Position numbers and translations under genes: made by a program. From positions 1 through 54,871 of the forward strand of contig JAETNY010000014.1 of the NCBI GenBank assembly GCA_021771915.1: a stretch of 54,871 bases of DNA. The letters run 5' to 3'. This DNA is from Bacillota bacterium (GTDB lineage Bacteria > Bacillota > Dehalobacteriia > UBA4068 > UBA4997). Shown here piece by piece: positions 3,426 through 49,066 of the stretch. How positions within the stretch are numbered: position 1 is the first letter of the stretch; every line of letters begins with the position of its first letter. The notes beneath the pieces were generated by a model. It did no database searches and was not told the DNA's origin. It was given only the letters and a program-made list of their open reading frames with translations.

Positions 3426-5011
3426 ATGGAAAACTCAAATTATCTTGGCAGCGAAAAGGTAGGGACACTACTGCGAAAGTTTGCTATCCCCTGTATATGC
3501 TCACTGATTATTTCTTGTCTCTACAACATCGTTGACCAGATTTTCGTCGGCAACGGTGTTGGCTATTTGGGTAACGCTGCCACTGGCGTTATTTTCCCGA
3601 TTACGGTTGTGGGCTGGGGATTGAGTCTGTTTTTTGGTGATGGCGCCGCCGCATTAAGCGTTTCTTTGGGGCGAAGAGAAACTAAAGACATTCACAGGAG
3701 CATAGGGAGCGCGCTTCTTGGCTCTTTTCTCTCCGGCGTGGTCGTTATCGTTATTGCCTATTTATGGGGCGATAGTTTGCTTTGGCTTATTGAAGCAACA
3801 GAGGCAAATATCCAAATGGCGCATGATTACGGTGTAATTATCTTTGCCATGATGCCCCTTGCTATGACGCAGAATACTTTAGCGTCCATCATTCGCGCAG
3901 ACGGCAGCCCCAAATACGCGATGACGGCATTGCTGCTGGCGCACAGCCCATTGTGGGCTATAATTACGGCGCAAAAAACTATGACCGGGTGCGAGAACTG
4001 CTGAAACTGATGATTAAGTGGACAGTTATCGTTGGCCTAATCTGCACGGTTCTCTTTGAAGCAATCCCCGGTGTATTTATTCGTATGTTCGGCTCGGCAA
4101 ACGACCCGATTTACTTTGATTTCGCCGTACTGTGCTTGCGGATTTACCTTGGCCTTATCCTCGTTACCTGCGTACAGAAAGTTTGCGCCATCTTCTTACA
4201 GTCTACCGGCAAAGCAAAGGCTGCTGCTCCATTGTCGATTTTGCGAGACGCGCTGTTGATTGTTTTCTCCCTGCTGATTCCTGTTTTCTTAGGCGTTACC
4301 GGTATTTTCTGGGCTGCGCCGATTGCAGACGTCTTAGCCATTTTAATTACCGCTGCGGTTATGATTCGGGTGTGGAAAGAATTGAGCTGTGACAATAATG
4401 CCCAAGAGCCTACGGCAGCAATTCAGCCCTCGCGTCAGGGCGCGATTATTACGATTGCAAGAGAACATGGTTCCGTGGGAAAGCGAATTGGACAGTTGGT
4501 AGCGCAGCGTCTTAATATCCCTTGTTACTATAAAGAACTTGTAGCCGTTGCAGCCCAGGAAAGCGGTCTGGCTCAGGAGTTTATCTCCGGTATCAATTCA
4601 GACGAAAACGCTGTTATGCGAGAGTTATATCTCTCTACCGACCCTGTTAAACGAGCTATCGCCGCACAGGACAAGGCTATCCGCAAAATTGCGGACGCTG
4701 GTTCTTGCGTTCTCATAGGCCGCTCGGCAGATTATATCTTGCGGAATTACAAAGATGTGGTGCGTATTTTTATCCACGCCCCCAAGAGCTATCGAGAGAA
4801 AAAGATAATGGAAATGTACGGGGACAGCCCGGAAGCCGCAAAAAAGAGCATTGCCCGTTCCGACGCAGCCAGAGCGGCTTATTACAAGAATGTTTCCGGC
4901 CATGAATGGGGCGACCCCCACGGATATGAATTGTGTATTGACGCTTCTATGGGAGAGGAGGCCGCCGCGAACTTGATTTGCGACTATGTTAACCGAATGA
5001 ACAAGCTATAA
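3426..5011 (+). pseudogene. MATE efflux transporter fused to a cytidylate-kinase-like domain, broken by an internal deletion
   Basis: Frame 1 (3426-4004) begins with a good AGGAGG site and reads a normal MATE N-terminus up to RADGSPKYAMTALLLA, then goes out of frame. Frame 2 (from about 3944 to 5011) resumes with AQPIVGYNYGAKNYDRV, a motif that in intact MATE proteins lies after the seventh helix. The family sequence between the two points, roughly 100-120 residues, is missing, and the join shifts the frame. Downstream in frame 2 the last MATE helices are followed by a cytosolic domain starting near IITIAREHGSVGKRIG, which resembles the cytidylate-kinase-like family with a degenerate P-loop. 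The transporter should be dead; the kinase-like part could only be made by internal initiation (a GTG at 3953 has no ribosome site). Confidence 0.75.
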
Positions 5012-5075: not shown

Positions 5076-5420
5076 ATGAAATACAAACAGATTCGATGTT
5101 TCCTGACTGGAAACGCGCTGCCACCAAAAAGCGAACTCACCGTCAAGGGCTGTTTCGGTCTTGAAAATGACGGTCTGCCAACTCTACGCGAATCAGAACA
5201 ATCACAGGAGAAATGTGCGACACAACACCATGAAAAGCCAGGAACGGCTAGCGATGTATCAAAAATACCTAAGTCGTCAGTATTTAAGAAAACTGGAAGT
5301 TGTATGTTTGCAGGTCTATATCCCGTTTCAAGTCTTCGATTATTGAACCGAAAGACCGTATGCCTTTTTGTTATGGCTCAAAAACCACCTCTTTTCCGTC
5401 CGATTTTAGAATCAGAGTAA
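5076..5420 (+). CDS. Possible small hypothetical protein of 114 residues
   Basis: An ATG frame behind an AGGAGG site (see the hairpin just upstream). The product starts MKYKQIRCFLTGNALPP and is not recognised. Its 3' end overlaps the convergent permease gene by about 50 bases, and there is a competing frame at 5161-5346. It could be a decayed remnant of the same acquired segment as the broken MATE gene. The only positive evidence is the ribosome site, so the call is weak. Confidence 0.25.
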   Translation: MKYKQIRCFLTGNALPPKSELTVKGCFGLENDGLPTLRESEQSQEKCATQHHEKPGTASDVSKIPKSSVFKKTGSCMFAGLYPVSSLRLLNRKTVCLFVMAQKPPLFRPILESE

Positions 5421-7371
5421 CTTTTTCACCGTCATAACCAACAGACAGGGCCGGGTCATTTGAAATCTTCATACTGCCAACGCCATCGCTGCCGCACAGA
5501 TAAACGCAATCGGAATCCATACGGTTGATAAAATACAGCCCTTGCTCAGTCAGGCAGAAGTCATAAGCAACAATATTCTGCAACGGTCTTGTTTTGTGAG
5601 TCTTGGTATCATATGCTGTCAGCAGAGAATTTTCGTTGATGAAATATATCGTCTGTCCGTCAAACGCTATATTCCCCCTGGTGGGAATATCCAGCATTTG
5701 CGTTCGCTGAATTGTCCTGCTTACTTCCGTAATCCCATCATTCGTAATGAAAAAGAAACTGTCATCGTTCAGGAAAAAGCCGTAGCAGTATTGCAGAAAC
5801 ATCCAGGTATCTCCCACAGTATAATCAATTCCCAGCAAGGATTGCCCGATGTCCGTTATTTTCTCAAAAATAACCTGCTCTTCAAATGTTTCCATGTTGA
5901 GTTGGACAATGGACACTTGAGTAGACGTGCTGTTGTAGCTGCCGACCCGGTCAACATGCCGTTCTGTGCGTGAAGCCATATAATAAATGTATGCGGCGTC
6001 CATATAAACGGCCTTGACGGATTCTTCATCCGAAAAAATCCCGAACAATGGTGAAAGTGGTAGATTCGTCAAAACGCCGGTTGTCAGGTTTGCCAGAGAG
6101 TACGTCTGCGTCTGGTCATTGAAAATCACGCTGTAATTTTCCGACACACTCTGCGAAGATGAATTGAAGATTCCGTTTGCAGATTTTGCGACAGAGCAGC
6201 CGGACAGCGAAAACAAAAGCAACAGGCTTAACGCAACAACTCTGTGCCGTTTGATAAGTTTTCTTGCTGATTGCCAGCAGTTGGTGTTTTGCCGCAGCAC
6301 CCACCATATCATGAGGGCGCAACAGGTAGCGGATAAGCCGAGCAAAGTCAGCAGCTCCTGGAGGGAACGCTCCGAAAATGTAATAATGGTATCTCCAGTC
6401 AGCAAATCCTCCGCCGAAGAAGTTCCTGACAGAAAGTCGGTAGCCAGCAGAAACGGCAAGGGCAACGGCAAATTGTAACAAATTTGCTTGGACAGGCCGA
6501 TGTAGGGAATCAAGGTGGCTGCCACCCCGATTACTACCGTCAAAGCGTATTTTTTCACCAAAACAGAGATAAAGAGTAGCAGCGCAGCGAGATACACCGA
6601 GCCAAAACAGCGCAGGAGGGTCAGAATCAGATACGCGGCCAGCAAAGAGACATTTTTTGTACTGCCTCCGAAACTGGCGATACTCTGAACAGGGTACTCC
6701 CCGTGAGGCAGACCGTATTTCAGCCCGAAGAATACAAAACGAATCAGAGCCAGCCCTCCGCAGAGAACGAACACGACGCAGAGGACAATTACGGTTTTGC
6801 TTCTGGCACTCTTGCGGCTCTGCGGAGCCGTCCGCAAAAGCCCATCCATCTGGCAGCTATACTCCGAGCAAAAAACCGTCGTCGCCAAAATCAAAATGAC
6901 AAGGAACAGTGGAAAGTCCAGCGTTTGGGCAGAAAACAGCCCCACCCAGCCGTTTGTGTTCAGAAAGTAACGATTGTTAGTGTCTTCGCAGACGTATAAA
7001 TATTGCTGGTATGCAGCTTCAAAGCCTTGCTCATGCGCCAATACAGCGCTCGCCTCCGCAATCTGCCGCTCATACTGTTCCGCTGTAATCTGGCCGCTGT
7101 AATAACTTTCCTGGGATTGAGCGCGAGTACTGCGAGCCTCCGTGATGGCCTGGGCCTCCTGTTCCAGCCAAGCGGCTTTTTCCTCTGTGTACTCCCCCTC
7201 CAGTCGTTCCAGATACCACTCGTATTCCTCACGATATTCTTCCAGCGCATTGTTCTGCGGCCTGTCGGTTACGACCAGCCAAACTGTACTGACCAGGAGC
7301 GTAGCCAGAATGTATAGCAGTCCACGCTGGAAAATCATCAGTTTTTTCCATTCATAAAAGAAAACTCTCAT
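5371..7371 (-). CDS. ABC-2 type permease fused to a lipoprotein-like C-terminal domain
   Basis: A 666-residue protein. I start it at the ATG at 7369-7371, which overlaps the preceding permease stop in ATGA; an upstream extension of the frame only reads the permease gene out of frame. Residues 16-36 form a first helix, 37-150 an extracytoplasmic, strongly helical, Glu-rich domain, and helices follow near 153-170, 192-212, 243-270, 276-295 and 340-358. Then residues 372-392 look like a lipoprotein signal peptide, KLIKRH plus a hydrophobic core ending in LSLSGC (Cys392), followed by about 270 residues with repeated YxxN/strand patterns (for example RGNIAFDGQTIYFIN) like a beta-propeller. No internal start codon fits a separate lipoprotein. 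It would pair with the upstream permease and ATPase. Confidence 0.82.
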   Translation of the reverse strand: MRVFFYEWKKLMIFQRGLLYILATLLVSTVWLVVTDRPQNNALEEYREEYEWYLERLEGEYTEEKAAWLEQEAQAITEARSTRAQSQESYYSGQITAEQYERQIAEASAVLAHEQGFEAAYQQYLYVCEDTNNRYFLNTNGWVGLFSAQTLDFPLFLVILILATTVFCSEYSCQMDGLLRTAPQSRKSARSKTVIVLCVVFVLCGGLALIRFVFFGLKYGLPHGEYPVQSIASFGGSTKNVSLLAAYLILTLLRCFGSVYLAALLLFISVLVKKYALTVVIGVAATLIPYIGLSKQICYNLPLPLPFLLATDFLSGTSSAEDLLTGDTIITFSERSLQELLTLLGLSATCCALMIWWVLRQNTNCWQSARKLIKRHRVVALSLLLLFSLSGCSVAKSANGIFNSSSQSVSENYSVIFNDQTQTYSLANLTTGVLTNLPLSPLFGIFSDEESVKAVYMDAAYIYYMASRTERHVDRVGSYNSTSTQVSIVQLNMETFEEQVIFEKITDIGQSLLGIDYTVGDTWMFLQYCYGFFLNDDSFFFITNDGITEVSRTIQRTQMLDIPTRGNIAFDGQTIYFINENSLLTAYDTKTHKTRPLQNIVAYDFCLTEQGLYFINRMDSDCVYLCGSDGVGSMKISNDPALSVGYDGEKVTLILKSDGKEVVFEP

Positions 7372-8588
7372 TTTGCCCTCCGAACACAGCGGTGACAGTT
7401 TTCCGCTGACAGAAAATAAATCATAACAGCAACTGCAAGGCCAACAATCAGAGCAAACCATATTGCGGCCTGCCAAGTCAGGACGGGGAATCCGCCCAGG
7501 TTTATAAACTCCGTTTTGCCCAGGAGAACACGGTTTGCCAACAAAGAATAAGGGTTTAACGCCTTGAGCCAGAAAAAACTGGAATAGGCACTGGCGGCTC
7601 CGTTGACAATCAGCGCCATACAGAGGGCAAAGTTGATGATAAACGGAACCAGGGCATTTTTCCAGAACATTGAAACCAACAGCCAGAGCATACCAATCAC
7701 CCAGGCACCGGCGCATTTGAGCGCCGCAGACAAAAGGGCATATTGGAAAATGCTGATATTGACGGATGACTCCGCAAAGTTAGGAATTGCAAATATCGGC
7801 AGCGCCAGTCCTTCCAGAGTTTGAAATGAAACCGCAAAGCCAATCAGGTCAAGCAAAGAAAACCACAGCGACGTCAGGAGCAGAAACAGAGTGGCGGCAA
7901 GGATTTTGGCTAAGGCTGTTTTTCTGCCGCCGTTGGGATTTACCAGCAACAGCATATCCATCTGCGTTTCTCTCTCGTTCACAAAGGTACTGATGACTCC
8001 GTAAAGACTGATTAGTAAAGTCAGGACGATGGAAAAATCATAGTTCAGATAGTAATTGCACATTTCCCGATAGGCAAAGGCTGTGATGGCGCGTCCAGCG
8101 TAAAGATTATAGATTATACTGTTCTCCCTCTGCTGGTAGACCGCTCCCCGTTCCCCATAAAGCGCGGCGTTTTGCCGCGCTTTATTTGCCACTTGCTCTG
8201 ACCGGCCGCTGTACTCATAGAAATACTGCATAGGCTGCACAAAATACCTGTCCAGCAGGTTCCTGTCGCTATACAGGTTACCGGTCATCGTGTTGGGGTC
8301 ATCGACGGCTGTGCTTGCGGTCATATCCGATGTGGCCTCCACAAGAGGCTGATAAACCGCAAGCAGGTGTTCGATTTTCTTCAGGGTAATCTCTCCCCGG
8401 TATTCCTCATAAAGCTGCCAATGGTGCGTGTGCCAACTCCGCTCTCCGTTCCCGTCTGTCAGATAGGAGTAGGATTGGTATTCGCCATAGATTTTGAACA
8501 GGTTGGCGAGGCTGAACACCACAAATAGCGCCAGAATGGAGTGTTTACAGAACTGCTTGATAAATTCATACCGTATCAGACGTATCAT
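7368..8588 (-). CDS. ABC-2 type transporter permease
   Basis: A 406-residue membrane protein starting MIRLIRYEFIKQF at 8588; this start overlaps the ATPase gene by 23 bases. One N-terminal helix (residues 14-32) precedes an extracytoplasmic domain of about 150 residues rich in Tyr, Glu and Gln, then roughly five more helices. The layout (TM1, large outer helical domain, TM2-6) matches the sister permease just downstream, so the two probably make the heterodimeric channel. The NERETQMDML segment after the second helix is the usual coupling region. Substrate unknown. Confidence 0.85.
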   Translation of the reverse strand: MIRLIRYEFIKQFCKHSILALFVVFSLANLFKIYGEYQSYSYLTDGNGERSWHTHHWQLYEEYRGEITLKKIEHLLAVYQPLVEATSDMTASTAVDDPNTMTGNLYSDRNLLDRYFVQPMQYFYEYSGRSEQVANKARQNAALYGERGAVYQQRENSIIYNLYAGRAITAFAYREMCNYYLNYDFSIVLTLLISLYGVISTFVNERETQMDMLLLVNPNGGRKTALAKILAATLFLLLTSLWFSLLDLIGFAVSFQTLEGLALPIFAIPNFAESSVNISIFQYALLSAALKCAGAWVIGMLWLLVSMFWKNALVPFIINFALCMALIVNGAASAYSSFFWLKALNPYSLLANRVLLGKTEFINLGGFPVLTWQAAIWFALIVGLAVAVMIYFLSAENCHRCVRRAK

Positions 8589-9453
8589 GGCGCTCTCTCC
8601 TGCAATAGTATAAGAACACATCTTCCAGATTGGGCTGGACAGGCTGTGCGCCCTTGATTGGGCATCCATCCGCAGCAATGCGGAGGGTAAACTGTCCGTC
8701 CTCCTGCTTCATGTTGCTGACACAGTACATATCGGTCAGCAGCGCGGCATCCTCGGCTCCGGCGGTTACATTCCACACCTTGCCCTCAATGTTCTGCTCC
8801 AGCGCGGTGGGTGTTCCCTGCATGAGCAGCCTCCCCTGTTTCAGCAGCAGGATTTCTCGCGCAATGCACTCAACATCGGAAACGATATGAGTGGCCAGCA
8901 GAATTGTCCGGCCCTGAGCAAACCGGGAGATAAGATTGCGAAACCGTATCCTCTCGCTGGGGTCAAGACCGGCGGTAGGCTCGTCCAGAATCAAAATTTT
9001 GGGGTCGGACAGCATGGCCTGCACAATGCCGACGCGCTGGCGCATACCGCCGGAGAGTGCGCCGATTTTCTTGTTCTTGGCGTCCGTCAGATTCACCGTG
9101 GCCAGCAGTTCAGAAACCCTATTCTGCGCTTTATCGGTGGGAATATCTTTAAGCGCACACATATAGAGCAAAAAGTTTTTGACAGTAAAATCCCGGTAAA
9201 AAATAGGATACTGCGGCATATAGCCGATTTGAGCCAGAAATGCTTTGCCCAACTCTCTGACGTTCTGGCCGTCCACCCAGATTGTGCCGCTGTCCCCACA
9301 CAAAATGCCCACAAAGGTATTGATGAGCGTTGTTTTCCCCGCTCCGTTTTCACCCAGCAGGCCGTACACGCCCTCATTCAATGTGGCGGTAAAGTTTTTC
9401 AGCGCATACTTGCTTTTGTATTGTTTCGATATGCTTTCAAATCTAATTTCCAT
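8566..9453 (-). CDS. ABC transporter ATP-binding protein (ABC-2 partner)
   Basis: A 295-residue ATPase with Walker A GENGAGKTT at residues 34-42, Q-loop in IGYMPQYPIF, signature LSGGMRQRVGI, Walker B ILILDEPTAGLD and H-loop LATHIVSD. The start MEIRFESISKQY is at 9453, one base after the stop of the upstream gene. Sequence style is that of BcrA/YxlF-type ATPases, which drive export or immunity to peptides and antibiotics. It is followed by two ABC-2 permeases with overlapping ends, giving a complete transporter. Confidence 0.93.
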   Translation of the reverse strand: MEIRFESISKQYKSKYALKNFTATLNEGVYGLLGENGAGKTTLINTFVGILCGDSGTIWVDGQNVRELGKAFLAQIGYMPQYPIFYRDFTVKNFLLYMCALKDIPTDKAQNRVSELLATVNLTDAKNKKIGALSGGMRQRVGIVQAMLSDPKILILDEPTAGLDPSERIRFRNLISRFAQGRTILLATHIVSDVECIAREILLLKQGRLLMQGTPTALEQNIEGKVWNVTAGAEDAALLTDMYCVSNMKQEDGQFTLRIAADGCPIKGAQPVQPNLEDVFLYYCRRERHDTSDTV

Positions 9454-9454
9454 G

Positions 9455-10630
9455 TTATTCGCCAAAGGTAAATGTGGATACCAGCGTATCAACTTCGCTG
9501 ATACTGGCTCCGAGAACTACAACGGCGGTTTTGGCGTTATCCAAAAGGTAAATTCTGGGTATGCGGTTGAAATATGCGCTATTGGAGTTTTTAATGACTT
9601 TGGTGGCAATTAGTTTACCGGAATTTACATCATAAACACGAATTGTCAGACTGCCGTCTAAAACGGCGGTCGCAACATAGTTTCCCTGCTCAGAACTATA
9701 CACACCGTTACGCCCCTCGCTTTTGTTTGCAAAGGACAGCGTTTTTTTCTCGCCAGTTTGCCGGTCTAACCAAAGAAGCGTTCCATTGGCTTTGGTAAAG
9801 ATTTGTGGGAAAAACAGCCGCTTGGTGCTGCTTTGCATTTCTTCTATGTCATAGGCTGACGGTTTCGTGATTTTCAGATTGCTGCCATTTGCGGCAATAC
9901 TTCCATAGATAGAAAAACTGTTCTCGCCGTTTTTGGCAGGAATGGAGATTCCTCTGCCATAGAATATGATTTGGCTGTTGTCCGGGGAAAACGCAATGCC
10001 ATCCAGCGAAGAAATCTGAATTGAGGCTGTGCCGCTCTTTTTCGTTAAGTCAAGCAGAGTGGTAAGTTTTTCCTTTTCCAAATCATACAAATATAGCCCG
10101 CCAAAGGCAGCAATGGCCAGCTTTTTTCCGTCTGTGGTGGCCGCCACGCCAGTTTCGCTGACAACAAAATCTTCCAGCAAAATCTCATTGACCGCAATTT
10201 TCTTATTTAACGAAAGTGAATTGTCATAAATATACGTCGTCATGCCGCTATCGCTCATGCCGGACAGTATGTAGCCTCCGTCAATGGTTTGAACATCAAA
10301 AGAGCGTAAGGGTTTTTCTGCGGTGGCCAAAACCGTAGCTGTGGCGGTATCATAAAGGTATAACTTATCCGCCGCGGCGAAAAGTTTCCCATTACCGGCA
10401 TAGGCGCAGTCCTGAAGTTTTCCGGCAAACTGGGTGGGATTGAATACGCATTTTACGGGGTTTGCCGCCGGAGAAACATTATTCTTCGAAAGGCTGCCAG
10501 AGGCCGAAGCAAAGAAAATTTGCACGTCGGAAGATACTTTCGTTGGCGCAGACAGCGCTTCGGCTCTGCTATTAACCGGCAATGCCAGCATAAAAATTGC
10601 AGTTAAAATTATACAAAAAATCTTTTTCAT
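9455..10630 (-). CDS. Secreted propeller-like protein, paralogue of the upstream lipoprotein
   Basis: A 391-residue protein with a signal peptide MKKIFCIILTAIFMLALP that lacks the lipobox cysteine seen in its paralogue, ending instead in a signal-peptidase-I-like SRAEA. The rest shows repeated strands such as NGKLFAAADKLYLYDTA and GVAATTDGKKLAIAAFGGLY, consistent with a WD40-like beta-propeller. It is clearly a tandem duplicate of the 10667-11803 gene; long blocks are nearly identical, including CAYAGNG and RIPRIYLLD. Its stop lies one base before the ATPase start. Function unknown; it may sense or present something at the cell surface for the two-component system or the ABC transporter. Confidence 0.82.
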   Translation of the reverse strand: MKKIFCIILTAIFMLALPVNSRAEALSAPTKVSSDVQIFFASASGSLSKNNVSPAANPVKCVFNPTQFAGKLQDCAYAGNGKLFAAADKLYLYDTATATVLATAEKPLRSFDVQTIDGGYILSGMSDSGMTTYIYDNSLSLNKKIAVNEILLEDFVVSETGVAATTDGKKLAIAAFGGLYLYDLEKEKLTTLLDLTKKSGTASIQISSLDGIAFSPDNSQIIFYGRGISIPAKNGENSFSIYGSIAANGSNLKITKPSAYDIEEMQSSTKRLFFPQIFTKANGTLLWLDRQTGEKKTLSFANKSEGRNGVYSSEQGNYVATAVLDGSLTIRVYDVNSGKLIATKVIKNSNSAYFNRIPRIYLLDNAKTAVVVLGASISEVDTLVSTFTFGE

Positions 10631-10666
10631 GTTTATTGCTCCTTATACATTAAAATTAAATTACAC

Positions 10667-11803
10667 TTAAAATGAAAATGTGTATACCAGCGTATTGATT
10701 TCACTGATACTGCCGCCAAGGACTACAACAGCGGTTCGGGCTTCGTCCAAAAGATAAATCCTGGGAATGCGGTAGAAATATGTGGAATCTGCGTTTTCAA
10801 TCACTTCGGTGGCAAGCAGTTCGCCGGAAACCACGTCATAGATGCGAACTGTCAGACTATCGTTCAAAACGGCGGTTGCGACGTAGTTCCCCTGCGCCGA
10901 ACTATATACGCCGTCCCTACCCTCATCACCGTCAGAGAAAGAAAGCGTATCAGTAATGCCTGTTGACCGGTCGAGCCAAAGCAGCTTGCCATTGGTTTTG
11001 GTAAAAACTTGAGGGAAAAACAATCGGTCGGCGCTGCTCTGCATTTCATCTATATCATAGTTCGATAATTTCGTAAGCTTCAGATTGCCGCCGTCCATGT
11101 TAATGCTTCCGTAAATGCAAAAACTGTCTTCGGCTTCTGTTGTGGGGATAGAGTTACCTCTGCCATAAAATAAGATATGATTGTTATCGCAGGCAAACGC
11201 AGCACCGTTCAATATGGAAACGCTAATGCCGTCTGTCCCGGCGTTTTGGCGCATGTCCAGCAGATTTGTCAGACGCTCGCTTTCCATATCGTATAGATAC
11301 AGACCGTCAAAGGCAACAATAGCCAGCTTCTTTCCATCAGTGGTGGCTGCTATACCACCGGTTTCGCTGCTAACAAAATCTTCGGTCAAAAGTTCGTTAA
11401 CTACGATTTCCCTGTTCAGAGAAAGCGAACGGTCATAAACGTATGCCATCGCACCGTCATCTCCCAAGCCGGTCAGTATATAACCATCGTCAATAGGCTG
11501 AACCTCAAAGTCAAACAGTTGAGGCGCTTCTGTTTCAGCCAACACTGATGCAGCAGCAGTATCATAGAGATACAGTTTGTCCGCCAGTACAAAAAGCGTT
11601 CCATTGCCGGCATAAGCACAGCTTTGGAGTTTACCGTCAAACAAAGTGGGGTCGAAGGTGCAGTAAGAAGACGACTGTCCCGGCTGTCCGCCAGAGGCTG
11701 GAACAGAAACCATGGGAGCCTGGGAATCCGTCTTATCACAGGCGGATAATGCCAAGGTAAAAAGCAGCGCCAATGTAATGCAAAATGTTTTTTTCATATT
11801 CAC
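10667..11803 (-). CDS. Propeller-like lipoprotein
   Basis: A 378-residue lipoprotein: signal peptide with lipobox LALSAC (Cys about residue 22), then a beta-rich repeat region. The start is a GTG that overlaps the stop of the upstream gene (GTGA); an ATG two codons later is the alternative. Repeating strand blocks such as GIAATTDGKKLAIVAFDGLY and RVYDRSLSLN-type segments suggest a six- or seven-bladed propeller. It is followed by its own tandem duplicate at 9455-10630. Expected at the outer face of the cytoplasmic membrane. Confidence 0.85.
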   Translation of the reverse strand: MNMKKTFCITLALLFTLALSACDKTDSQAPMVSVPASGGQPGQSSSYCTFDPTLFDGKLQSCAYAGNGTLFVLADKLYLYDTAAASVLAETEAPQLFDFEVQPIDDGYILTGLGDDGAMAYVYDRSLSLNREIVVNELLTEDFVSSETGGIAATTDGKKLAIVAFDGLYLYDMESERLTNLLDMRQNAGTDGISVSILNGAAFACDNNHILFYGRGNSIPTTEAEDSFCIYGSINMDGGNLKLTKLSNYDIDEMQSSADRLFFPQVFTKTNGKLLWLDRSTGITDTLSFSDGDEGRDGVYSSAQGNYVATAVLNDSLTVRIYDVVSGELLATEVIENADSTYFYRIPRIYLLDEARTAVVVLGGSISEINTLVYTFSF

Positions 11804-12834
11804 TTCTCCTTATACAATAAAATAGAATTACTCTTAAAAAAGGGAGCGGAAGTTCCGTCATGGGGAACGGCGACACAATAGAAAGTGTTAAATTCTTCCA
11901 GCTTATCTGGATCTATTATAGTTTTAATTTCCATAAGGCCGCCTTTGTTCAAAACAACAGGGCAGAAAGTTCTGTTGCCAATTTCCACCGGCTGGTGATT
12001 AAGAAAAAAAACAACATTGTAACTTGTTCCGGCTGTGCCGCACATGGTATACCGCAGGGTAACTGGCGCCGAAACACACAGGTTATCATAGACGATATCG
12101 CCGTCATAAGAGAGAGTGTAGTATATTCCGCTGTCCAGCGTATCCATGCTCACACCGTACCAGCCGTTTTTGGAAAGTTCGTTTTCCACATACTGCGCTG
12201 TAACCTTTTCCTCCCATACATCACTCTGCGTGAAGATTTCCTGAACCGGTGGGAAGTCTGAGCAGTCGGTGGGCGCGTCCATGCTAAATTGCAATTCAAC
12301 ATGGGAATCCAGCGTTTTATGATACCAGCCATAGCTGGATGTGGATTCCATATCCGGCTGGAAGTCCGGGTTCGTGATGCTCACCACGGTCAGAGACAGC
12401 GTATCGCCGGCGCTGCCGGTAACAGGCTCAAAGAGAAAAGAAAAGCTTTGATTTTCCCCTATGGGAAAACTGTGGCAATACTCATACTCCGCTGTGGTAT
12501 CGTTCACCTTGTAGGGCTGGGGCTGACCGTCCAGAAACAAAAGAAATCCAAGGCTATCTAGCTTGCCGGTAACAGAATACTGATATGCAAGCTGAAACTC
12601 TCCGCCATTATATGTAAATGGCAGCCTTTCTCCTTTTGCGGAGAAATCAGGCGAAACAGCTTCATGAGTAAGCATTGCCAAAAATTCGGCGTCATCTTCT
12701 GCCGCCTCAAACGGATTTGCGGCGGCATTCTGCGACGGTGGGGGCGTACTGTCTGGAATGGTATAGTTCGCACAGGCGGCGAAGGATAAAAGAGCGCCGC
12801 ACATAAAAAAAATAGTAATTAATCGTTTTAGCAT
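11800..12834 (-). CDS. Lipoprotein of unknown function, first gene of the ABC operon
   Basis: A 344-residue protein with a lipoprotein signal peptide (MLKRLITIFFMCGALLSFAAC; lipobox SFAAC). The mature part is beta-rich with no family I recognise; it carries segments such as FPIGENQSFSFLFEPVTG and FNTFYCVAVPHDGT. It is the promoter-proximal gene of the six-gene operon and overlaps the next gene by four bases. A TATGCT -10 and tandem TTTTGAC boxes lie upstream, in the same spacing as at the response-regulator promoter. It could be the sensor-associated or substrate-binding partner of the transporter. Confidence 0.82.
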   Translation of the reverse strand: MLKRLITIFFMCGALLSFAACANYTIPDSTPPPSQNAAANPFEAAEDDAEFLAMLTHEAVSPDFSAKGERLPFTYNGGEFQLAYQYSVTGKLDSLGFLLFLDGQPQPYKVNDTTAEYEYCHSFPIGENQSFSFLFEPVTGSAGDTLSLTVVSITNPDFQPDMESTSSYGWYHKTLDSHVELQFSMDAPTDCSDFPPVQEIFTQSDVWEEKVTAQYVENELSKNGWYGVSMDTLDSGIYYTLSYDGDIVYDNLCVSAPVTLRYTMCGTAGTSYNVVFFLNHQPVEIGNRTFCPVVLNKGGLMEIKTIIDPDKLEEFNTFYCVAVPHDGTSAPFFKSNSILLYKEK

Positions 12835-47301: not shown

Positions 47302-47511
47302 TCAAATATTGCCGGCAACCTTAGCCAGTCGCCTCTGCCCGGCCTCCGCATATTTGCGCTTGGTCGCCATACCGCCGCGCAAATGGCGCTCTGCCTTGTT
47401 GTTCTCCAAAATCTCCTTAACCTGCCCGGCCACCACTTCATTCAGCAAGGGCAGGCGTTCCGTTATATCCTTATGTACGGTCATATATATTTGGAGCGTT
47501 AATTCTTTCAT
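47302..47511 (-). CDS. Small transposon protein, TnpW-like position
   Basis: A 69-residue basic protein (MKELTLQIYMTVHKDITERL, then GGMATKRKYAEAGQRRLAKV) overlapping the recombinase 3' end by 41 bases. Tn4451-like elements carry a small frame downstream of tnpX that is thought to assist excision. The ATG at 47511 is chosen over an upstream start inside the recombinase. Recognition rests on position and style. Confidence 0.55.
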   Translation of the reverse strand: MKELTLQIYMTVHKDITERLPLLNEVVAGQVKEILENNKAERHLRGGMATKRKYAEAGQRRLAKVAGNI

Positions 47512-49066
47512 TAGCAGCAATGCGTCTGGCAGGCTTTTTATTGTCCGCTATCAGCACTTTATCCGTCAGCCCCAAGTCCCCCAACAGCCGCAGGAATATT
47601 TCCACATTGCCGTCCTTGTCCACTTCAATCCGCTGGATTATCTTCTTCAGCTGGGCGTTAGTCATCTGGCTGACATCTGTTATATCTTCAATCTGCTTAA
47701 AGGTGCTATGCAGCAAATTTTCCAGCTGCATACCCTTAGTCAGGTTATAGGAAACCATTTTCAGCTCATTTTCCAGTCGTTCAATTTCCTGTCTGGCGCC
47801 GCCAATCTTCTCGTTCAATTCCTCTCGGCTGATTAAATCGTCAGCGTACATATCCATATATTTCTGACGGTTTTTTTGCAGTCTGGCAAGCTGGCTTTGT
47901 AGCTGCTTTTCATACTCCAAATTTTCGTCTTTAGCTTTATAAACTCGCTGAAACTCGCCCACCACATAGCCGATAACCTGCTTTTTGTTTTGCAAAATCT
48001 CGGCAAAATATTCCTGCAATACGGCAATCAGTTCCGCCTCGTCCACCGTAACCGCATTCGGGCAGCTATCCGCACCCCGGCCATTATGCCCGGAACAAAC
48101 CCAACGAATATAAGTATTTTTGTAAGTTCGCACCGTCCGCCGGAAAGACCAGCCGCACTCTTTGCATTTTATTAAGGTAGAAAAAAGATGTTTGTTGCTC
48201 TGGCGTTTGCCGTCCACCTTAAAAGCCTTATACCTGGCAGCCATTATCTGCTGCGCCTGTTCAAAAACCTCCGGCTCAACAATCCGCAGCTCCGGCTTGT
48301 CCACCGTCAGCCATTCGGTTTCGTCCTTATCCGCTCGCTGCCCGGTGAGAAAATCCGTAACCTCCTGCTTGCCATTGATAATTTTGCCGGTATAAAGCTC
48401 ATTAGTTAAAATCCGGCAGGTTGCGTTCTGGCTCCACTGGCAATTTCGCTTGGTTTTCAAACCTCGCTCATTCAGCATATTGGCAATCTTGGCCGCCCCG
48501 TAACCCTCATTAATATACCAATGGTAAATTTGCCGTACAACTGCCGCTTCCTCCGCATTGACAGTCATATTAAAATAGTCGCCAATCGTTTTATCATAGC
48601 CATAAACTATGTTCGGCACCCGGCCTTTTTCAGCGTTAAGCTTTTTGCCGAATTTCACACGCTTGGAGGTGTTGGCGCTTTCTTCCTGCGCCAGCGCCCC
48701 GAAAATTGTCAGCACAAATTCACTGTTGCCCATATTCGTCATATTAGCGGTGAGAAACTGAGTTTCAATCCCTAGAGCTTTCAGCTTGCGAACATTTTGC
48801 AGCAGGTCAACGGTGTTTCTGGCAAACCGGGAAATATCCTTAACCACCACCATATCAAACAGGCCACTTTCTGCGTCCGCCATCATACGCAAGAACTCCT
48901 TGCGGTTTTTGATTTTGGTGCCGGATATACCCTCGTCAGCATAAAGCCGTACCAGATTATCCCCTGTACGCTGGGTATACTCGGCAAAAAATTCTTTCTG
49001 CGCCTCCAGACTGTTCAGCTGGTCTGTTTTATCAGTGGAAACCCGGCAATAAGCTGCAATATTCAT
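47471..49066 (-). CDS. tnpX: Large serine recombinase, TnpX-like
   Basis: A 531-residue site-specific recombinase. The catalytic Ser10 is in AAYCRVSTDKTDQ; further resolvase motifs are YADEGISGTKIKNRKEFLRM, VVKDISRFARNTVDLLQNVR and EESANTSKRVKFG. A recombinase domain (about 155-260) and a zinc ribbon (CKECGWSFRR then CSGHNGRGADSCPNAV) lead to a coiled coil (380-450). This is the TnpX/large-resolvase layout used for excision and insertion of the transposon. All domains are intact. Confidence 0.95.
   Translation of the reverse strand: MNIAAYCRVSTDKTDQLNSLEAQKEFFAEYTQRTGDNLVRLYADEGISGTKIKNRKEFLRMMADAESGLFDMVVVKDISRFARNTVDLLQNVRKLKALGIETQFLTANMTNMGNSEFVLTIFGALAQEESANTSKRVKFGKKLNAEKGRVPNIVYGYDKTIGDYFNMTVNAEEAAVVRQIYHWYINEGYGAAKIANMLNERGLKTKRNCQWSQNATCRILTNELYTGKIINGKQEVTDFLTGQRADKDETEWLTVDKPELRIVEPEVFEQAQQIMAARYKAFKVDGKRQSNKHLFSTLIKCKECGWSFRRTVRTYKNTYIRWVCSGHNGRGADSCPNAVTVDEAELIAVLQEYFAEILQNKKQVIGYVVGEFQRVYKAKDENLEYEKQLQSQLARLQKNRQKYMDMYADDLISREELNEKIGGARQEIERLENELKMVSYNLTKGMQLENLLHSTFKQIEDITDVSQMTNAQLKKIIQRIEVDKDGNVEIFLRLLGDLGLTDKVLIADNKKPARRIAANERINAPNIYDRT

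Follow-up and report, generated by a model that had tools for sequence, protein, structure and literature searches.

A gene fusion of gut Clostridia with a conserved lipoprotein signal peptide in mid-protein suggests two working parts from one precursor

Results

Gene organization of the locus

The window, by which we mean the whole stretch of 54,871 nucleotides that was analysed, contains a reverse-strand gene that joins an ABC permease to a predicted beta-propeller through a segment resembling a lipoprotein signal peptide. The gene, its parts and its neighbours are listed with the evidence for each assignment.

5371-7371, minus strand: whole gene (permease, predicted internal lipoprotein signal peptide and propeller), 666 aa plus stop; translation and 37 close loci, mostly full length
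6292-7371, minus strand: permease domain, residues 1-360; PF12730 match below cut-off, hydropathy and adjacent ABC ATPase
6199-6273, minus strand: predicted type II signal peptide inside the chain, spanning about residues 367-391, with a basic n-region, a hydrophobic core and LSLSG; matrix score and pattern test
6196-6198, minus strand: Cys392, predicted to be lipidated and to form the new N-terminus upon cleavage; conservation in orthologues and fused homologues
5374-6195, minus strand: predicted extracellular DUF5050-like beta-propeller, residues 393-666 (274 aa); Pfam, model and fold match
7368-8651, minus strand: partner permease 1, distantly paralogous to the permease domain, with 26-27% identity to its residues 152-284/332
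8566-9456, minus strand: ABC transporter ATPase; PF00005, 1.6e-31
9458-10630, minus strand: protein with an N-terminal signal sequence and no lipobox, propeller-like by eye; paralogue of 10670-11803, 63% identity
10670-11803, minus strand: lipoprotein (LSAC), propeller-like by eye; no Pfam match
11803-12834, minus strand: lipoprotein (FAAC); homologues in loci L069 and L071-L076
12956-14925, minus strand: histidine kinase and response regulator beside the operon; HisKA, HATPase_c, Response_reg, Trans_reg_C

Upstream of the fused gene and on the same strand lie the partner permease, the ATPase, the signal-sequence protein and the two lipoproteins, followed by the kinase and regulator. The adjacent two-component system suggests that the transporter may be induced by an envelope signal. 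Lipoproteins, the ATPase and both permeases also occur at the fused-permease loci L069 and L073, and the arrangement in L071, L074 and L076 is similar; a kinase is present in L071, L073 and L076, and a regulator in L073. At three loci (L071, 2709-4883; L072, 10305-12398; L074, 10063-12159), counterparts of the 11803-12834 gene and of the 9458/10670 genes are found in one chain of about 700 residues. Within the paralogue pair at 9458-11803, one member has a lipobox; the other, which is without the Cys, resembles a signal peptidase I substrate. Elsewhere in the window, positions 3426-5011 of the plus strand encode a MATE transporter with a cytidylate-kinase-like domain (PF13189) behind it. This is split into two overlapping frames (3426-4004 and 3953-5011) that each hold part of the MatE domain, which looks like a frame break within a fused MATE-kinase gene.

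Domains of the 666-residue protein

The start ATG of the fused gene has GGAGG 4 bases upstream. The open frame can be extended to 7716; however, close orthologues align from the Met of the 666-aa form. After helix 1 of the permease domain comes a loop of helical character (about residues 40-140), predicted to be extracellular, and five further helices follow. PF12730 (ABC2_membrane_4) matched residues 146-284 at 24.2 bits, under the curated Pfam cut-off of 27, and was matched at E 0.001 by 2/10 rows of alignment A4. An ABC-2-type setting is present, in that an ABC ATPase and a partner permease adjoin the gene. Hydropathy gave a six-helix permease part, with helices 4 and 5 merged, and then the segment RKLIKRHRVVALSLLLLFSLSGC; most fused proteins likewise have six helices ahead of the junction. 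A shallow full-length model built from 17 close orthologues was set aside for topology (mean pLDDT 51.6), and because the membrane part was poorly modelled, the topology given here rests on hydropathy and charge.

The 274 residues that follow Cys392 gave a beta-propeller when modelled alone (mean pLDDT 67.5); its second half mostly reached pLDDT 70-94, and its first half was uncertain. The best fold match was 3s25 (Z 12.8, 209 residues aligned, rmsd 6.5), a 7-bladed propeller-like protein of Eubacterium rectale with a similar fold and only 12% identity. With the first half of the model uncertain, the top fold matches were propellers or proteins with a propeller part, and no substrate-binding-protein fold was among them; a PDB sequence search returned nothing better than E 0.11. 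DUF5050 (PF16472) scored 26.8 bits against the C-terminal domain, just below the cut-off of 27, and 19.5 bits, also under the cut-off, at residues 605-661 in a Pfam search of the whole protein; it was matched by 3/8 rows of alignment A5 at E 0.01. A propeller fold is therefore what both the model and the fold matches predict for the C-terminal half, in line with an earlier note on this DNA, made from the sequence alone, that had placed a propeller after the signal segment.

The signal segment at the junction

Residues 372-392 read LIKRHRVVALSLLLLFSLSGC and end in LSLSG followed by Cys392. The basic residues, hydrophobic core and LSLSGC that the earlier note had described within a 666-residue permease are all present, the basic stretch starting near residue 370 (RKLIKRHR). 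Type II signal peptides are N-terminal by definition; this segment begins near residue 367 of a single open frame. The residues before its hydrophobic core include six Lys or Arg and zero acidic residues. By the positive-inside rule, the positively charged end of a helix lies on the cytoplasmic side, which would put the n-region in the cytoplasm and the Cys outside.

The junction Cys ends a loosely defined signal-peptide-plus-lipobox pattern in all of 15 fused proteins, and 13 of the 15 also satisfy a stricter lipobox pattern, L090 and L091 failing it. The same pattern was found elsewhere in the fused permeases in 3 among 106 hydropathy segments, a total that includes the junction helices, and in none of 99 hydropathy segments from 16 unfused relatives. 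A scoring matrix was also built from 20 N-terminal lipoprotein signal peptides, a non-redundant set taken from the fetched loci; none of these is a junction segment, and the test is partly circular because the training set was picked by the lipobox pattern. In this matrix the window's junction scored 19.9, with a training mean of 20.3, and the junction held the top-scoring Cys in 16/20 fused proteins. An upstream Cys outscored that of the junction in L104, L110, L112 and L118, the junction scores of L104 and L118 being below zero. The 91 Cys of unfused permeases scored at most -0.5. Profiles of the fused family moreover retrieved genuine N-terminal lipoproteins (L044, L116 and L117) through the signal segment alone; these had been considered as separate halves of the fusion and were rejected as unrelated small lipoproteins.

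The enzymes that would act on such a signal are encoded. LspA was found in 8/8 genomes searched and Lgt in 6/6, the window's own genome being included in both cases.

Conservation among close orthologues

A scan of genome contigs (genome_contigs) recovered 37 loci that are 77-98% identical to the gene, in records labelled as several families of Clostridia and as unclassified bacteria. Where matches at these loci were longer, the extra length was only the neighbouring permease paralogue. The alignment comprised 39 rows (the window, one further genome and the 37 loci), of which 35 cover Cys392. In these 35 rows, Cys392, Ser390 and Ser393 were each conserved in 35, Gly391 in 34 and Leu389 in 33. 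Variability within the protein peaks in the n- and h-regions around Cys392: the two 20-residue blocks in 361-400 had conservation of 0.80 and 0.83, all other blocks lying at 0.855-0.971, so that the lipobox stands out against a drifting background.

Of 35 genomes from its own order, 33 lacked the gene at E 1e-5. This absence, together with the wide spread at 77-98% identity, suggests horizontal transfer. Relatives were found neither in viral contigs nor in plasmids. The window encodes a serine recombinase at 47474-49066, and a probable integrase fragment was seen by eye near the operon in L076.

Fused and unfused relatives

A profile of the permease half matched 18/295 genomes, and one of the full-length protein matched 86/394, in the order to which genome G367 belongs. 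Across the phylum, the full-length profile matched 19/398 genomes, with full-length matches only in the window and in two genomes (G005 and G267). We examined 30 loci, the best matches among the 86 genomes. A C-terminal extension was present in 16, and all 16 had a basic-hydrophobic-lipobox-Cys segment at the junction; the 14 without an extension had no such segment (0/14). Twelve further stretches were picked by hand, mainly because the match extended past the permease or the open frame was long, and comprised five fused genes with the motif, five unfused permeases without it at that position and two unrelated lipoproteins. In one unfused permease, L115, the pattern does occur in the final helix, 10 residues short of the C-terminus. 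In the combined set, the motif stands at the junction in 21/21 fused loci versus 0/19 unfused loci. Some loci represent the same place twice (e.g. L053, L069 and L085); in the alignment of fused homologues, clustering at 70% identity takes care of such duplicates. Three of the 16 fused loci were excluded from the alignments of fused proteins, namely L080 and L081, which are near the window, and the frame-broken L089.

Among 20 aligned fused homologues, which form 13 clusters below 70% identity with a mean of 23% between clusters, Cys392 is present in 20/20 and is one of six invariant columns. The residue before it is small (G, S or A) in 20/20. The earlier note had named homologues bearing the same helix without the Cys as the observation that would count against its proposal; such proteins were sought and numbered 0/35 among close orthologues and 0/20 among fused homologues.

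Unfused permeases stop just past helix 6 by hydropathy, and separate lipoproteins scoring above the DUF5050 cut-off are encoded in the same gene clusters as L045, L068, L070 and L077, four of these permeases. The two parts are thus separate in relatives and joined in one gene here. That the locus is a permease-lipoprotein fusion, as the earlier note proposed, is certain, and the separate halves that it suggested looking for exist. Profile comparison of the fused propeller with the separate neighbouring propellers gave weak links (A6, E 0.002, probability 13.6; A7, E 0.087). We therefore make no claim of descent, and the connection rests on the shared DUF5050 family, in which the separate lipoproteins lie above the cut-off and the fused domain just under it. 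When 40 permease domains were placed in a tree, the 15 from fused proteins fell on one side of a branch with support 89/93. The tree is unrooted, and the fusion probably arose only once.

Several variants were seen among the relatives. L112 (570-3611) encodes 1014 residues with a permease, a lipobox (GGAAIITAAVMLLGGC), a propeller-like part and a tail of about 370 residues; this tail matched none of the operon propellers or proteins compared, which came from the window and 13 other loci. L055-L059, L064 and L065 carry a tandem fusion of two permease units, about 720-840 residues long, that lacks any lipobox domain. In L075 (6274-7707) and L089 the propeller of the fused gene is cut by an apparent frame break, the remainder lying in another frame. 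Two matches that read through a stop (L125 and L115) had no separate lipoprotein downstream.

Alternative readings of the junction

We think it quite probable, from these comparisons, that the gene encodes a two-product precursor that would be cut by the lipoprotein enzymes. The main alternative is a permanent fusion, in which the signal-like helix is simply transmembrane helix 7 and tethers the propeller, with Cys392 either unmodified or lipidated and left uncut. The junction segment does score as a membrane helix, and the signals of known LspA substrates are N-terminal. Permanent permease fusions to extracellular domains also exist: OpuA has its transmembrane and substrate-binding domains in one chain, and OpuABC of Lactococcus lactis is described as having an ABC permease and an extracellular domain covalently linked (PMC11065425). 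The likeness to OpuABC lies in the single chain of permease and extracellular domain; OpuABC is an importer with a substrate-binding domain, whereas in the window's protein an ABC-2-type permease is followed by a lipobox and a predicted propeller. A permanent tether of this kind needs no Cys, yet Cys392 is invariant in the fused family and preceded by a small residue throughout, and the pattern is missing at the junction position in unfused relatives. An OpuABC-like tether would leave the Cys unexplained, and we hold the permanent fusion to be unlikely.

A second alternative, which we consider very improbable, is that the lipoprotein is made also or only as a separate product from an internal translation start. 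The earlier note had seen no start codon for a separate lipoprotein. In-frame start codons do exist upstream of the signal segment (ATG354 and GTG358, inside helix 6 or just after it), and in this respect its statement needs qualifying; neither has a ribosome-binding site. In the close-orthologue rows that cover them, ATG354 is kept in 33/35, being ACG in the other two, and GTG358 in 21/36. When the 45 codons before the Cys were inspected in 15 fused genes, an in-frame ATG, GTG or TTG with a ribosome-binding site at the usual spacing was found in 0/15, and the candidate positions differ between fused homologues. The same test detected a site at the gene's own start in 9/15 genes, which makes it moderately sensitive; two of the six genes without a detected site were read from one codon too late. 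The strongest synonymous constraint in ten-codon windows was located at the 5' end of the gene (codons 3-12) and not in the region of codons 354-358.

Finally, the fusion could be a recent accident or an assembly artefact, the Cys at the helix end being a coincidence. Only the odd architecture speaks for this reading, which is highly implausible given that 37 close loci from separate records and 13 divergent clusters carry the fusion, and that the fused proteins lie on one branch of the tree.

Discussion

Of the two readings that the earlier note offered, a fused lipoprotein and a single precursor processed into two products, the evidence favours the second, since conservation across the fused loci reaches beyond the helix to the lipobox itself. 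Selection for lipidation and cleavage is the best account of the strict linkage between lipobox and extension, and of a Cys that persists while nearly all other positions change. Taken together, the comparisons support the reading that a lipoprotein signal is used within a polytopic protein, and support it better than a plain fusion.

In the mechanism we propose, the six predicted ABC-2-type permease helices would be inserted into the membrane, returning the chain to the cytoplasm. The basic n-region and hydrophobic helix would then serve as an internal lipoprotein signal peptide that exports the propeller. Lgt would attach diacylglycerol to Cys392 and LspA would cut between Gly391 and Cys392, with the permease retaining the signal peptide as a seventh helix. 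The freed propeller would become a lipid-anchored lipoprotein located beside its transporter and present one-to-one with it, presumably as an accessory of that transporter.

The predicted signal peptide is like those of ordinary Lgt/LspA lipoproteins, including the two in the operon, in its n-region, hydrophobic core, lipobox, invariant Cys and score range; it differs from them in being internal, behind a six-helix permease of 360 residues. A gene that yields two products in a way comparable to that proposed here is FbcH, the cytochrome b/c1 precursor of Bradyrhizobium, in which a polytopic part is followed by a cleaved internal signal peptide. FbcH differs from the window's protein in that signal peptidase I makes the cut and the products belong to a respiratory complex. 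Signal peptidase I sites take the form A-X-A, and no such site is at the junction, which reads LSLSGC with an invariant Cys. Signal peptidase I is, however, known to cleave one polytopic protein, LtaS of Staphylococcus aureus, in which SpsB cuts after the polytopic membrane domain (PMC10865820). LtaS resembles the present protein as a polytopic protein with a signal-peptidase site releasing an extracellular domain, here a predicted one; LtaS is a signal peptidase I substrate without lipid and an enzyme, whereas the window's protein has a type II lipobox and belongs to a transporter. Full-text searches of the open PMC library turned up neither a polytopic protein with a type II signal peptide inside its chain nor a case of LspA acting after several helices.

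Conclusions

This fusion gene of gut Clostridia carries a conserved lipoprotein signal peptide in mid-protein, which suggests that two working parts are made from one precursor. It is likely, on the same comparative grounds, that signal peptidase II serves as the polyprotein-processing protease for a whole clade of ABC permeases, yielding a seven-helix permease and a lipid-anchored propeller in a fixed one-to-one ratio. Because lipoprotein signals are normally sought at the N-terminus only, such proteins would go unrecognized and be recorded as plain permeases. Should the cut prove real, the family would give a test system that is ready to use, with globomycin as its specific inhibitor, the substrates of Lgt and LspA would extend to polytopic precursors, and bacteria would have a simple route to equal amounts of a transporter and its surface partner.
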